Shown: positions 12,459 to 49,091 of the stretch, one piece after another
Position numbering within the stretch: position 1 is the stretch's first letter
Layout of the letters: every line of letters starts with the position of its first letter
Source: Bacteriovorax stolpii
Lineage (GTDB): Bacteria; Bdellovibrionota; Bacteriovoracia; Bacteriovoracales; Bacteriovoracaceae
Direction of reading: 5' to 3'
Assembly (NCBI GenBank): GCA_945860895.1
Contig: CAMASK010000006.1
Span: 1-64,000, forward strand
Length of the DNA stretch: 64,000 bases
The notes under the pieces: generated by a model
The model's database searches: none
The model's input: only the letters and a program-made list of their open reading frames with translations
Told to the model about the DNA's origin: nothing
Made by a program: the position numbers and the translations under genes

Positions 12459-15400
12459 TTATCTCTTAGAAGTGTTTTGGTCGGGGTTTAATTCAAGGGA
12501 TTTAAAAGATTCATCAAGAAATTGGATCAATTTCTCACGGTGATTAAGGAAAAGCTCATCCATCATTTCTTTCAAACGATAACCTTCAACATTCTTTTCA
12601 CCTAAAAACTCTATTAGAAGTGAAACAGTCAATTTATCTTTTGAATTGCCCAGAGCACTTTGGAACCAAGCCTTGAGGGATTCCCATTTTGTATCGCCTG
12701 GTGAAAAAATCGCCTGGAATGTTTCAAGCCAATTAAGATCAGTCTCAAAATGGTTCATGTTAATTAGCTGATTTATAAACAAACTGATTCTTTCAATAAA
12801 ACTTTCATTTTTTAATAATATTTTCAAATCTTTTAGATCAATCAGTCCTGAATTTGATAATTCCCCTACCAGACGATTCAATGCTTCCTGATTGATGATT
12901 AGACTATCTAAAAGCTTATTAACTAATTTTAAAAGTTCTTTTTTATCTTCTACTTTTGTCATTATCATTTTTATTTCAGGCCACATTTCAATTGATAATT
13001 CAAAAAGAGAGGCTATTTTTTCCAGATTTGGATTACTTATTTTTACATCAGAAAAAATCAAAATTGATTTAAGTGCAATCTCTTCGAGATATTTTTGCTC
13101 TTCGGGATTAGCAGTAGCAGCAAGATCGATTAAATCACTCATCAGTAGATTTAATTGATTCCTATCCGCGTCTAAATATTTGTCAAGTACAAATTGTTGA
13201 GCATTTTGTAATTTAGATATTTCATGGCGACCAATGAGATTTTTATTTATCTTCTTAAAATCATTGGTATCTAATTCACTTAATTCACTATCAAAGTGAG
13301 ATCGTACAAAACTTGATAAATGTCTTAACCCAGACATCCTGGTGACTTGAGTTAAAAATTGTCCATTATGACCTTCCACAATTGATCCTTTTGGAATCTG
13401 ATAAGGGTTAAAGTCTTGGGTAGAAAGCTTAGATGATTCACCTACGGCAGCCAGCAAGCTTTGAATGAATGGGCCATAGCTTTGTTTAGTTCCATTTGCC
13501 TGGTCAAATTCATCTGACAACTCAACAAGTGACCAATATGTATTACGGACATTTTTGAGTTTTGTTTTTGTCTCACGAGGAAAAGTATGCAGACCTCTAA
13601 ATAAGCCACCAGATTGTTGCATCATTTTTAGTAAATTTTCTTTAGCAATAACATCCTGCCTATACTGATCGGCACCGGCAACGGCATTTTTAAAATAAGA
13701 ACCATAGAAATTATTTATGAAAGCTATATCCCGAATCACAACCTCAAGCCGATCAATGGTAGTACCCTTTACTTTTTTGGTACCTGTATCGCTATGATAC
13801 AAGAATTCTTTTGATGTTTTCTCAGATGAGAGATCGTATAAAAATCTTATTGCTTCATCAATCGAAGCCTTATGATTACTCTTCTTACTTTTTTTGAATG
13901 GTAAATCAATACCACCTTGGGGATGAATCCATTTTATTAATTCTCCTCCGAGGCTTTTACCATTTTCATTTTTTCTTTTGATTATACGTAAAATCTGGAT
14001 TGTTCCATCTTTTAAGTCCTGCCTTGAAAGACAAGGATTTGCACCAATGTCAGCTCTTAGGGCTTCACAAGAAACAAATAAAGGATTTATCTGAATATAA
14101 GGCTTAGCTTTTTTAATTAATGTAAATCCATCTAAAGTTATCTGATTAAGCTGTTCATCGTTATGGTTGTTGAAAAAAAACTTTAATCGAGACTCAAGAG
14201 AAATTGCCTGATTTATCGATGCATAGACTCCTGAGAATTGATGAAATGTTTCAAGTAATTGTGGATGTGTTAAAACTCGGTGAATCTCTACTAGATTATT
14301 TTTAATTCCTTTTGAACCATTTTCCGAAGTCAGAATCATATTGGCCTGAACCGCACTAGAAAATATAAATTGAAGCATTCCAGGAGACCAGACCCCCGTT
14401 GCAGAATGAAAATCTCCAACCTGGTAATGGTCTTGAAAATACTTATTAGAGGCATTCATCCATAAATAAATTTGGCCAACAAATCCAACATTGCCTAAAA
14501 CTTTGAGGCAAGACTCTGGTAAGTTATTGACTAAGTTATAGTAACTGGAATCTTGTTCATAAGCTTCTGCCAATGAATTGAAACAAACTCTAGTCAATTT
14601 AGAATTAAGCTTCGTATCTTGCGTTTCAACATAAGTCATTATGGGAAGTGAGTTTTCCATTAACGGAGCTTGAATGGCATTTTTTTTCAAGTCTGAATTT
14701 CTTGTCAAGATTTCTACAAATTGAAATATTCCCTCGTCGGATAGGAACTTAGTTAAATCTGACTGCACATTTTCTTGTGAAAAAGTTTTAATCAAATATC
14801 GTAAGTTTTTCCGAAAATCCTCGCTTCTTAGTGAATTTTCCATGGAAGGAGTAAATTCGGGGAATGAAACCATTATATTTTCGGCAAAATTCATAACCTG
14901 AGAAGTATTAATTTCTTCACTCAACAAAAGTCCAATAAATGAAATAAAAGAATCTTTCTGTTGGGCGGACAGACCTTGCCACAATTTTGACCAAGACTTA
15001 AACCACTGGCCTGTCTTGCTGTTATTATATTGAAGGTCATTTATTAACCCTGAGATTGCTTCAAGATCACTTTTGTCCAAACGAGCAACAACTTCGTAAA
15101 GTGATTTAACGAATTCCGTATCATTTCCTCTTGATTCAAGATCAAGAAGAATTTCCCTTAGTGCACCAAAACTATTTGAGGATAAGAATGATAAAAACTC
15201 AAAACGATTATCCCCAAATATGACATGAATATTTTTCAGAAATGTGTAGTCATGATGGGAAGTTATTGCCATGAAGGCATGTTTCAATATCTTATAAAAA
15301 GAATCGAGTCCTTGTTGCTGGTCTTTTTCTTCGCAAAACCCTTGAAACGCGAGATATTTTGACATTCCATGGAGAAGAACACTTTCAAAACTCTCATAGG

Positions 15401-23640: not shown

Positions 23641-24312
23641 ATGAAAAAACAGGATCTAGCCTTAGAAGTCTTTAAACGTCTAAAGAAACTCTATCCAGAT
23701 GCTCATTGCGAGCTAAACCATTCAAATCCTTTCGAACTTTTAGTGGCTACCATTTTATCAGCCCAATGTACCGATGTTCGGGTGAATATAGTTACCCCTT
23801 CATTATTTAAAAAATTTCCTACTCCCGAAAAATTGGCCAAAGCCAAACTTGAGGATGTGGAAGAAGCCATAAAATCGATTAATTTTTTTAGAAATAAAAG
23901 CAAATCACTTTTAGGTTGTGCTCAAAAACTTATGAATGATCACGCTGGAGAAGTTCCTAGGACAGTTGAAGAGTTGAGTGAGCTGCCTGGAGTAGGACGA
24001 AAAACCGCTAATGTCGTATTAGGTAATGCGTTTAATATCAATACCGGAATTGTGGTTGATACTCATGTCAAGCGAACCTCAAATCTTTTAGGTCTTACTA
24101 AGAACACGGATCCCGAAAAGATTGAACAAGATCTAATGAAACTATTTCCTAATGAAGCATGGACTGACTTATCCCATTTATTAATTTTTCTTGGTCGCAG
24201 AACCTGTATCGCAAGAAGACCTCAATGTGATTTGTGTAGCTTAGTTGAAATTTGTCCATCTAAGAAAAAAGCTTCGAAAGTTCAGAAAAAAGCCCCTCTC
24301 GACACCAAATAA
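23641..24312 (+). CDS. nth: Endonuclease III
   Basis: LSAQCTD, LPGVGRKTANVVLGNAF, VDTHV, Fe-S C-x6-C-x2-C-x5-C (CIARRPQCDLCSLVEIC). Confidence 0.96.
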   Translation: MKKQDLALEVFKRLKKLYPDAHCELNHSNPFELLVATILSAQCTDVRVNIVTPSLFKKFPTPEKLAKAKLEDVEEAIKSINFFRNKSKSLLGCAQKLMNDHAGEVPRTVEELSELPGVGRKTANVVLGNAFNINTGIVVDTHVKRTSNLLGLTKNTDPEKIEQDLMKLFPNEAWTDLSHLLIFLGRRTCIARRPQCDLCSLVEICPSKKKASKVQKKAPLDTK

Positions 24313-37400: not shown

Positions 37401-38231
37401 TTAACCGATCAAGCGAAGAGCACTTTGACCAAGTTGATTAGCCTGAGCCAGAGTTGCTGTTGCTGCAGCACTTTTAACTGCATTGGCCGCAACCTTAGCA
37501 GTAGCATCAGCTACATCTACATCTTCAATTCGAGATTTAGCACTTTCCTGATTCACAACCGATACATCCAAGTTATTAACAGTGGCTTGTAGTCGAGATT
37601 GCATCGAACCAAAAGCCGCACGAAATGAACTTACTTTTGCAATGGCGCTATCAATATTTTCCAAGTTACTCAAAGCATCATCTTTTTCCTTAATATCTGT
37701 TCCCCCAATCCCTAAATTTTCAGCCGTTGCATCTGAGTTACCAGAATCAAATTCAATTCTGTTACCTTCATCACCATGTGCACCGACTTGAAATTGTAAA
37801 GTTTCTCCATCACCATTCAGGAGTGAGCGACCGTTAAAAGTTGTAGTTTTAGAAATACGATCTGCTTCTTGTACGAGTTGTTCGTATTCAAGAGATAGAT
37901 AACCTCGTTCAGCTTCACCCACAGTATCTGAGCTTGCTTGAATTGAAAGTTCTCGCAAACGAGTAAGAATATTACTCGTTTCATTCAAGCCACCTTCTGC
38001 CACTTGCACCATAGAAATCCCGTCGTTAGCATTTCTCGATGCCATACGTAAACTTCTAGTTTCTGCTTCCATTTGCTTGGCAATCGCCAAACCAGCGGCA
38101 TCATCAGAAGCTTTAGTAATACGCTTACCAGATGATAGTTTGCTGAAGTCAGACTCCTGTTGGACACTGTTTGCCCGCAGATTTTTTTGCACTTCCATAG
38201 ATGCAATGTTGGTGTTAATTCTTAAGCCCAT
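37401..38231 (-). CDS. fliC: Flagellin (short type, about 276 aa), start MGLRINTN at 38231
   Basis: MGLRINTNIASMEVQKNLR...SSGKRITKASDDAAGLAIAKQMEAETRSLRMASRNANDG and C-terminal flagellin domain; SD AAAGGGAG 7 nt upstream of 38231. Confidence 0.96.
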   Translation of the reverse strand: MGLRINTNIASMEVQKNLRANSVQQESDFSKLSSGKRITKASDDAAGLAIAKQMEAETRSLRMASRNANDGISMVQVAEGGLNETSNILTRLRELSIQASSDTVGEAERGYLSLEYEQLVQEADRISKTTTFNGRSLLNGDGETLQFQVGAHGDEGNRIEFDSGNSDATAENLGIGGTDIKEKDDALSNLENIDSAIAKVSSFRAAFGSMQSRLQATVNNLDVSVVNQESAKSRIEDVDVADATAKVAANAVKSAAATATLAQANQLGQSALRLIG

Positions 38232-38250
38232 CAACGTACTCCCTTTGCTA

Positions 38251-38288
38251 AGAACGGTTAAATTTAAACCGACTAAATTAGTCGTTCT
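38251..38288 (-). promoter_or_regulatory. Three-way-junction RNA structure in flagellin 5' leader
   Basis: Outer stem 38251-38255/38284-38288, inner hairpins 38256-38270 and 38271-38283, no unpaired junction bases. Confidence 0.55.
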
Positions 38289-38292
38289 CTCC

Positions 38293-38319
38293 TTATCGAA
38301 CTCTTCGAAATAAAAATTA
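38293..38319 (-). promoter_or_regulatory. Sigma-28 (FliA)-like promoter of flagellin
   Basis: Minus strand TAATTTTT-N11-TTCGATAA versus TAAAGTTT-N11-GCCGATAA: 6/8 and 6/8 matches with exact spacing. Confidence 0.65.
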
Positions 38320-42332: not shown

Positions 42333-43949
42333 TTGAAAAATAAATACTTCTCAGTCCTTCCTATAGGTGGAGTCGAAGAAATTGGCTCCAACATGACTCT
42401 AATCCGTGGGTCCGAGGAAGATATCATTATAGACTGCGGAATGCTTTTTCCCTTTGAGGAATGCTTTGATATTAATTATTTGATTCCCGATTTTTCACTG
42501 CTTGATCCGTCCAAAACCAGAAATATTATTATTACTCATGGTCACGAAGATCATATTGGAGCTTTAGCACATTTGTTAAAGCAGTTTCCAGATCTGACTC
42601 TTTTTGTAACTCCATTCACGTTACATTTAATTCAAAGAAAATTAGAAGAACATAAAATCAGTTTTAAATATGTGGTTTATCAACCAGGTCAGGAGCTTTC
42701 ATTCACTAATGTGGACATCATTCCCATACATGTGAATCACTCTATTCCTGAAACCAGTGGTCTCATTATCCGATCGAAAGCCAGGGAATGGGGAGCACTG
42801 TATATTTCAGACTTTAAAGTTGATCTGAACTCTAAGCATGAAGAGCCAATTGATTTCAAATTAATTAAGCAGAAATTATCTGAGTGTACTCAAACGGCTT
42901 ACTTCATCGATAGCACCAATGTAATCTATGACGGAAAAACGACTTCAGAGAATGAACTTCATAATGATCTGGAGCATTTAATGAATCGACCCGAGAATCG
43001 ATTGTTCATTACGCTTTTTGCCTCCAACGTTCATCGCATGAATGCTATTGCTAAAATGGCAAAAGCTTCAGGTAGAAAAATTGTTGTAATGGGCCGCTCG
43101 CTTTGGACTTACATGGAAGCAGCTCGGGAATCAGGTCACACTGAAATCACAGCAGACGATCTATTTATGCCTGATCAAGTAAAAGGTCAGACTGGAAAAA
43201 TGCTCATTTTTCTCTCTGGTTGTCAGGGAGATTTTTTAAGTGCACTTCGGCGCTTTAGTTTTGGAGAAGATGGAAACTTTAAACCAACTCCCGGTGATGT
43301 TGTTATTTTTAGTTCGAAGGTTATTCCAGGAAATGAAAAAAAAATTTACCGCATCTATAATAAACTCACTTCTTTTGGTGCTGAAATAATCACTGCTCAT
43401 GATCATCTTATTCATGCCTCTGGGCATCCTGGTAAAGAAGATTTAATTTTACTAATTAATAATTTCACACCCAATTACTATTTCCCAATCCATGGGGAGC
43501 GCTACATGCTCAGAAAACATCAGGAATTCTTGAAGAAAGATTTCCCGAAGATTTCTTCTCATGTAATCCACAACTATCAGGAAGTTATTTTAGGTGATGG
43601 ACAAATTAAAGTCGAAGATCACGATGTAATTGAACCGCGACTTATTCATGGTAAGGCCCTTGAAATTGAAAAAACACAAATATCTCAAAGAAGAAAGATG
43701 GCAACCCAGGGAGCAGTGTTTATCAGTTACCATCGTTCGATGGGACTTTTAGATATTACCACACTGGGTCTACCCTTGATGGCCCAGGAATCTATGGAAG
43801 CCCTGAAAAAGCGTCTTTTAAAACAAATCCAATCTGATCTTGCCGGCCGGGAAGAAACTTATTTCAAAGATCAATTAAAGATCTCTACCCGACAGTTTTA
43901 CAACCAACTTTTGGGTTATAAACCTGTTACAGAAGTTCATCTTTACTAA
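42333..43949 (+). CDS. rnj: Ribonuclease J (TTG start)
   Basis: IDCGMLFP, ITHGHEDHIGAL, SGCQGD, IPGNE, HASGHPGKEDL, PIHGERYMLRKH; GAGG SD 8 nt upstream of TTG. Confidence 0.93.
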   Translation: MKNKYFSVLPIGGVEEIGSNMTLIRGSEEDIIIDCGMLFPFEECFDINYLIPDFSLLDPSKTRNIIITHGHEDHIGALAHLLKQFPDLTLFVTPFTLHLIQRKLEEHKISFKYVVYQPGQELSFTNVDIIPIHVNHSIPETSGLIIRSKAREWGALYISDFKVDLNSKHEEPIDFKLIKQKLSECTQTAYFIDSTNVIYDGKTTSENELHNDLEHLMNRPENRLFITLFASNVHRMNAIAKMAKASGRKIVVMGRSLWTYMEAARESGHTEITADDLFMPDQVKGQTGKMLIFLSGCQGDFLSALRRFSFGEDGNFKPTPGDVVIFSSKVIPGNEKKIYRIYNKLTSFGAEIITAHDHLIHASGHPGKEDLILLINNFTPNYYFPIHGERYMLRKHQEFLKKDFPKISSHVIHNYQEVILGDGQIKVEDHDVIEPRLIHGKALEIEKTQISQRRKMATQGAVFISYHRSMGLLDITTLGLPLMAQESMEALKKRLLKQIQSDLAGREETYFKDQLKISTRQFYNQLLGYKPVTEVHLY

Positions 43950-48116: not shown

Positions 48117-49091
48117 TTAATGATAGGGGATTTTTACTTCCAATTCAAACTCTATTCCATAGAAGTGATCCATTTCAAAATTTATTAATTCAACCAAGGT
48201 TTTGAATTGATCCCAAGTCGCCTTTCCAGAATTTTCCATAAAGTTTGCGTGCTTGGGACTAATTCTAAGCTCCCCTACTCCTACACCTTTAAGCTGGAGT
48301 AGATCGATCAGTTTTCCTGCAGGTAATTCTTTAAGAGGATTTTTGAAAACACAGCCGCAGTTTTTGGTGGCCAAAGGTTGAGTAGTTTTTCGATAGTTCA
48401 AATAGTCTTTTATCTTCTGTGGAATCAATTCATCTATACCCAGATGAATAAGGGTAGCTCCCACAATCACTTCACCTGGTTTTACAAAATTATTCTTACG
48501 ATAGGAAAAACTTTGAGCAGTAATTTTCTCCTCTCTAATTTTTCCCTGCTGATCGACCAAGCGAACTGATTTTACTAATTTACCAATCTCACCTAGGTTC
48601 GTTCCAGCGTTCATGTAAATCGCCCCACCCAATGTGGCTGGAATTCCAGTGAAAACTTCCCAACCTTTCAAACCAAATTTAACGGCGTGAGAGGTAAGGT
48701 GATTAATTCCTAGAGAGGCGGGCAATTCATATTCATCTTTAAGTGTTTCTAGATATGAAGGTTCAAATAAAAAATCTAAGTGAAGAATTAGTTCAGAACA
48801 TTGAGCTGGTAGAATCTGATTTGCACCCCAGCCTACAACTAAATATGGTTTTTTATGCAGACTCAAAAGTGGCAAGAGTTTTTGCAAAGCTTCTATTGAT
48901 TTCACTTCAATCAAGTCACCTTGAGAAGATAATTTAAAAGTCGTGAATTTAGTAAGATCGATATTTTCGAAAAATTCGCAATCTTGAATTTCCTTAATCG
49001 AGTCAACCAAGTTTTTCATACATGAGAAAGTAACACTATCTAGACATTTTTTCCAAATCATACGGATATTATTTTTCAGCACTAACATCAT
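48117..49091 (-). CDS. murB: UDP-N-acetylenolpyruvoylglucosamine reductase MurB (start may be at 49019)
   Basis: NLTKFTTFKL-type start, GIPATLGGAIYMNAGTNLGEIG, GCVFKNP, SPKHANFMEN. Confidence 0.93.
   Translation of the reverse strand: MMLVLKNNIRMIWKKCLDSVTFSCMKNLVDSIKEIQDCEFFENIDLTKFTTFKLSSQGDLIEVKSIEALQKLLPLLSLHKKPYLVVGWGANQILPAQCSELILHLDFLFEPSYLETLKDEYELPASLGINHLTSHAVKFGLKGWEVFTGIPATLGGAIYMNAGTNLGEIGKLVKSVRLVDQQGKIREEKITAQSFSYRKNNFVKPGEVIVGATLIHLGIDELIPQKIKDYLNYRKTTQPLATKNCGCVFKNPLKELPAGKLIDLLQLKGVGVGELRISPKHANFMENSGKATWDQFKTLVELINFEMDHFYGIEFELEVKIPYH

Follow-up and report, generated by a model that had tools for sequence, protein, structure and literature searches.

A conserved, covarying RNA stem-loop at the inferred 5' end of class-1 flagellin mRNAs in Bacteriovoracaceae, a candidate shield against 5'-end-dependent decay

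The flg-Rhizobiales RNA motif, linked to flagellar genes, is a candidate structured RNA. Stabilising stem-loops at the 5' terminus are described for E. coli ompA and papA and for B. subtilis aprE (Emory 1992; Bricker 1999; Hambraeus 2002, as related in the passages of PMC3997798 and PMC7509114 that cite them), and it is established in other bacteria that 5' hairpins impede conversion by RppH and shield mRNA against RNase E or RNase J (PMC3997798; PMC7509114). The flaA gene of C. jejuni combines a sigma-28 promoter with a covarying 5' UTR (PMC4894983). Mapped attack-phase promoters of Bdellovibrio bacteriovorus have, according to the promoter passages of PMC3627812, the consensus TTAAG-N16-CCGATA. 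Among the titles and abstracts retrieved by searches on Bdellovibrio or Bacteriovorax flagellin leaders, none describes a hairpin of the kind reported here.

The leader analysed here belongs to a flagellin gene of Bacteriovorax stolpii, within a window of 64,000 nucleotides (the whole stretch of DNA that was analysed, to which all unprefixed coordinates refer). Its CDS (276 aa; 37401-38231, minus strand), the class-1 flagellin of the family, was matched to flagellin models by hmmscan against NCBIfam and is 70-81% identical to its orthologues in the genus; the best flagellin model gave 1.1e-67, yet these matches lie below the curated cut-offs. A Shine-Dalgarno sequence, AGGGAG (38239-38244, minus strand), is read directly 7 nt before the ATG, where the genus leader alignment has the consensus AAGGAGTACGTTG. 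The sigma-28-like promoter that had been proposed upstream is confirmed: TAATTTTT-N11-TTCGATAA is read directly from 38319 to 38293 on the minus strand, with -35 and -10 elements at the right spacing for FliA (TAAT-N15-TTCGATAA) that are kept in orthologues. In the family, about 89 orthologues are preceded by a CGAT(A/C)(A/G)G -10 and, further upstream, a TAAA/TCAA-like -35. The -10 (CGAT; CGAA in two) was placed in 89 leaders, mostly by promoter match and in three cases by hand; the set excludes the ambiguous L113, a few duplicates and a few leaders that lacked a clear -10, and the presence of a hairpin was no criterion in choosing leaders. Counting 10 nt on from the T of CGAT, 86 of the 89 leaders have a purine (59 G and 27 A; the other three have C), and in 63 of the 89 a T stands just before this position. 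We take this conserved purine to be the probable +1, which in the window is most likely A38285 (range 38284-38286, minus strand).

As described in the earlier note, the 38 nt at 38251-38288 can close into a perfect three-way junction. The transcribed (minus) strand reads AGAAC-GACTA-ATT-TAGTC-GGTT-TAAATTT-AACC-GTTCT, occurs once in the genome (G000:C6:38251-38288) and, folded in isolation by RNAfold, gives this junction at -8.4 kcal/mol, a value that 10 of 200 shuffles equalled. One inner hairpin had been drawn as GACTAA-A-TTAGTC, whose 1-nt loop is impossible; its correct form is GACTA-ATT-TAGTC. The leader context is ordinary in stability, with z-scores of 0.56 over 121 nt and 0.00 over 75 nt, and no tRNA that might explain the fold lies anywhere in the window. 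A scan of the 64 kb found three perfect closed junctions in total versus about 0.07 expected from dinucleotide shuffles. The other two (13035-13074 and 48890-48928) both lie within coding ORFs and are probably due to chance, so perfection alone is weak evidence and establishes no function.

The position of the start bears directly on this structure. A38285 is the fourth base of AGAAC, the 5' arm of the outer stem (38284-38288, minus strand), so three of the five bases of that arm would be untranscribed. The proposal that the start falls at the edge of the outer stem is thus borne out in placing a structure at the mRNA 5' end, but the start itself appears to lie within the 5' arm. When the whole leader is folded from the inferred +1, no outer stem forms, and the prediction consists of hairpin 1, hairpin 2 (pairing probability about 0.6) and a helix in which GTTCTTA pairs with codons 3-5. 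Since 38285 is inside its 5' arm, the outer stem needs a start about 4 nt further upstream, and only with such a start does the junction reappear in the fold.

The part of this structure that evolution has retained is hairpin 1, C-GACTA-ATT-TAGTC-G (38270-38284, minus strand), as seen in both covariation and the positional pairing profile. Within the genus, orthologues came from 25 other genomes, of which 24 yielded a class-1 leader, one of the 24 yielding two; the remainder of the family was covered too, in a search of 129 genomes of Bacteriovoracaceae. In the 26 genus sequences, hairpin 1 is paired in 89.8-90.5% of cells, a figure that falls to 19-41% when the helix is slid by 1-3 columns, and two-sided (compensatory) changes occur at seven of nine pairs (29 cells). 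The MAFFT alignment was blind to structure, and the pairs of hairpin 1 were picked after inspection. None of 500 shuffles matched the pairing percentage, the two-sided cells or the covariation score, counts that are not probabilities because related sequences are non-independent. Parsimony on the genus flagellin gene tree requires at least 16 Watson-Crick exchanges, and among 85 distinct leaders family-wide, two-sided changes affect six of seven pairs (73 cells).

Position and stability agree with this pattern. The best local hairpin has a mean energy of -6.5 kcal/mol, compared with -1.44 +/- 0.17 kcal/mol in shuffles, and the starts of these hairpins cluster at the inferred +1. Pairing probability at +3 to +5 is 0.88-0.98 in real leaders versus 0.43-0.57 in shuffles, with maxima at about +2 to +8 and +15 to +21. 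Some orthologues have a mid-stem mismatch (unpaired cells, columns 21-33 and 20-34), and a clear hairpin at this place is missing in the family leaders L033, L119, L132, L124 and L127. In the window, hairpin 1 has just 5-6 bp and an energy of -4.5 kcal/mol, and the prediction leaves +1 unpaired. The loop sequence differs between genera, and a similar apex (AUUGU) is kept among members of the genus. Comparative analysis of the leaders thus shows that class-1 flagellin mRNAs of Bacteriovoracaceae carry a conserved, covarying predicted RNA stem-loop (stem of 5-9 bp, loop variable), placed at the first putative transcribed bases of a sigma-28 promoter and nearly gene-specific. In genus g32, eight class-1 leaders (L075, L081, L089, L093, L101, L107, L110 and L114) contain another hairpin further on, its loop rich in G (GAGAGT-GGGG-ACTCTC, GGGAAT-GGGG-ATTCCC); the stem of this second hairpin varies in sequence and stays paired. 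In other families of the phylum (L143, L144 and L140), the 5' end of the flagellin leader seems, by eye, to be pairable soon after the -10.

The remaining helices do not share this conservation. In the 26 genus sequences the outer stem is paired in 39% of cells and hairpin 2 (GGTT-TAAATTT-AACC; 38256-38270, minus strand), which is present here and not conserved as such, in 52%, with an alignment that is less dependable over both because leader length varies. We therefore rejected the three-way junction as a conserved unit with covariation in all three helices. The alignment of related leaders suggested in the earlier note does reveal compensatory changes in hairpin 1, but not conservation of the outer stem or hairpin 2, and with the start also falling inside the 5' arm, the idea that the junction is a functional unit is unsupported. 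The junction appears to be mostly peculiar to this one sequence, with the outer stem and hairpin 2 as probable local additions that have no conserved function.

Specificity was addressed with a covariance model of the -10 and hairpin. Its sole match in the B. stolpii genome was the window site, at an E-value of 2.46 that reflects a weak model. We rejected the candidate explanation that the hairpin is a general feature of all sigma-28 transcripts, given that the model, weak as it is, matches only flagellin in this genome. In the family as a whole, almost every match is found immediately upstream of class-1 flagellin, and the exceptions mostly have E > 1. Fourteen flagellin matches were held out from the model-building set, comprising sites in G069, G096, G149 and G032 (two) and second copies in G060, G062, G063, G065, G066, G067, G068, G071 and G072. 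No Rfam family reaches its gathering threshold anywhere in the window, and among 13 related leader loci, at E up to 1, Rfam gave nothing relevant; matches to an L20-leader-like family and to a microRNA family at these loci were dismissed as weak and irrelevant, both being below the gathering score. Hairpin 1 thus belongs to a conserved 5'-terminal element for which we found no description and no Rfam match.

We consider it somewhat probable, at roughly 55%, that this 5'-terminal stem-loop, flush with +1, would shield the flagellin mRNA from 5'-end-dependent decay. The conserved stem lies within about 2 nt of the inferred +1, and with 0-2 unpaired nucleotides it could work like the 5' stem-loops of ompA, papA and aprE. 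By this analogy, the stem would keep three activities from reaching the 5' terminus: conversion by an RppH-type pyrophosphohydrolase, capture in the 5'-monophosphate pocket of RNase E/G, and attack by RNase J, a 5' exonuclease. The abundant flagellin message would be kept long-lived, and selection would act on pairing of the 5' end, not on loop sequence. Both an RNase E/G and an RNase J-like enzyme are encoded in the genome. The gene for the latter (42333-43949, plus strand) is part of the context of the window and lies outside the element; it matches NCBIfam TIGR00649 at 4.6e-97 and 325.7 bits, under the 400-bit cut-off of that model. Besides the presence of both decay nucleases, we count in favour of this reading the covariation, the hairpin at the inferred +1, the purine at +1 in 86 of 89 leaders, the strand asymmetry described below, the held-out model matches, the known protective 5' hairpins and the same layout in the P1 paralogues. 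Flush placement, a variable loop and near-restriction to one flagellin gene would all fit such a role, and stabilisation of the transcript, which the earlier note had listed among several possibilities, is probably the best mechanism. Not every leader has its hairpin flush with the start: in the P2 paralogues it lies several nucleotides downstream of the inferred 5' end.

Alternatively, a small RNA or an RNA-binding protein could bind hairpin 1 and so regulate how the flagellin mRNA is translated or what becomes of it, much as CsrA-FliW does for flaA/hag, though through another recognition sequence. The genes csrA and fliW are neighbours in this genome (C17:24428 and 24801; G000:C17:24428-25157) and each is found in 119 of the 129 family genomes, several GGA motifs occur in paralogue leaders, some of them in hairpin loops, and the apical sequence is alike across much of the genus, so that a protein could read the loop. 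Against this, the loop sequence is not conserved between genera, and 23 of 26 class-1 genus leaders have GGA only in the Shine-Dalgarno sequence, whereas leaders of the C. jejuni type carry ANGGA in two loops (PMC4894983). With class-1 genus leaders mostly having no second GGA, a C. jejuni-type CsrA mechanism does not fit this gene, and hairpin 1 was rejected as a CsrA site since its loop in the window contains no GGA. On balance we regard a protein or small-RNA site as rather doubtful. Just upstream of csrA and fliW, at 24040, there is a further flagellin-like match, probably FlgL. A regulatory role of another kind would be a conformational switch, in which GTTCTTA (38249-38255, minus strand) pairs either with the 5' arm, forming the junction, or with codons 3-5 (38218-38224, TAAGAAT) around the Shine-Dalgarno sequence and start codon, and so gates translation. 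The window leader does fold into the start-codon helix from the inferred start and back into the junction when +1 is moved 4 nt upstream, and a (G/A)TTCT(T) motif lies upstream of the Shine-Dalgarno sequence in most of the 26 genus leaders. But the helix with codons 3-5 is predicted in about half of the genus, is absent from other genera and has no covariation support; its pairing probability is 0.39 versus 0.28 in shuffles within the genus and below shuffles elsewhere, its coding arm is fixed by the protein sequence, and the competing 5' arm is largely untranscribed and unconserved. The switch is improbable, and translation gating by the structure, as suggested previously, finds no conserved support in the genus or elsewhere.

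Whether the repeats act in RNA or DNA can be judged from the mismatches that they tolerate. Relative to column composition, G-T mismatches in hairpin 1 are near expectation (0.78-0.87), whereas A-C mismatches are depleted to 0.18-0.31; tolerance of G-U together with depletion of A-C indicates an RNA helix on the transcribed strand. A direct test of the difference between the two was weak (0.15, 0.09 and 0.016 in three sets), so the asymmetry favours RNA over a DNA palindrome in a supportive, not conclusive, way. The suggestion that the palindromes are an operator is accordingly disfavoured. Inverted repeats binding a repressor over +1 to +20 would occupy a common operator position, overlapping the start region, but besides the mismatch pattern, compensatory changes fall within the half-sites, sequence and spacing vary between genera, and the model matches almost only at flagellin; we judge an operator highly improbable. 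Least probable of all is a chance fold in AT-rich DNA that has no function. The ordinary folding energy (z = 0.56) and the occurrence of perfect junctions in coding sequence speak for it, and chance remains a good account of the outer stem and hairpin 2, but for hairpin 1 it is contradicted by covariation and position. Protection of the 5' end thus remains our preferred reading of hairpin 1.

Leaders of paralogous flagellin genes provide a further view. P1 leaders have the same CGA-N9-T-G(+1) layout, with T-G(+1) in 17 of 18 and a predicted hairpin in all 18; their consensus fold has a weak covariation term. Four to seven GGA motifs, resembling CsrA-binding arrays, occur in the last 100 nt of P1 leaders (L003; L158, L165-L190), some within hairpin loops (AAGCACGGAAGCTT, ATCATCACGGAATTGATGA). 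P2 leaders (L156-L185) carry a 10-bp covarying hairpin about 20-43 nt past the -10 CGA, a few nucleotides inside the inferred 5' end, with two-sided changes at six of ten pairs (30 cells) and a conserved apex, TCA-TRG-TGA. They also contain a conserved micro-ORF of six codons (e.g., M-I-L-T-G-G-stop) in all 16 checked, the set being G000:C64:4083 (L004 1339-1500), L036-L041 and L156-L185; its Gly-Gly codons form the flagellin Shine-Dalgarno GGAGG and its stop lies 3-4 nt before the flagellin ATG. In P3 leaders (L005; L191-L195), a five-codon micro-ORF (MLTGD*, MTTKD*, MQTKD*) lies over the Shine-Dalgarno sequence and ends 3 nt before the ATG. These features strengthen the view that the flagellin leaders of the family are under selection at the RNA level. 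We offer tentatively the possibility of a coordinated leader set. Most leaders would open with a covarying hairpin, either at the 5' terminus or slightly downstream of it, followed by a module specific to each paralogue (none in class 1, a multi-GGA array of CsrA type in P1 and a micro-ORF overlapping the Shine-Dalgarno sequence in P2 and P3), and the leader RNA would then determine in what order or dose the flagellins enter the filament.

The element described here would be an RNA element outside Rfam that most members of a predatory bacterial family possess, and that is tied to a major motility mRNA. It provides a testable case of 5'-end protection that may have been selected over long evolutionary time in one specific gene, and a ready covariance model, together with the CsrA-type paralogue leaders as a contrast set, for studying how several flagellins are dosed per filament.

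Compared with described systems, the element differs from the flg-Rhizobiales RNA motif (PMC2864571), given the Rfam results for the window and the 13 leader loci. It shares the promoter consensus of the FliA attack-phase promoters of B. bacteriovorus, whose promoter passages in PMC3627812 do not mention leader hairpins. Like C. jejuni flaA and Bacillus hag, it is part of a structured flagellin leader in a family that encodes CsrA and FliW, but the CsrA-regulated type has two or more GGA/ANGGA sites, with a hairpin loop holding one and the Shine-Dalgarno sequence another, and this leader lacks such a pair; P1 and P2 paralogue leaders fit the flaA/hag type better than class 1 does. With ompA, papA and aprE it shares a sequence-independent loop, a separate ribosome-binding site downstream and, judged by the inferred +1, the placing of a short stem-loop on or close to the 5' terminus of an abundant mRNA, and, as in those leaders, pairing matters and the loop does not: the stem has compensatory changes and the loops differ between genera. 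It differs from them in serving a flagellin, in belonging to a different phylum and in being kept family-wide with compensatory changes, its start and stabilising effect being inferred. In its predicted anatomy, then, the element is like the known 5' stabilisers.
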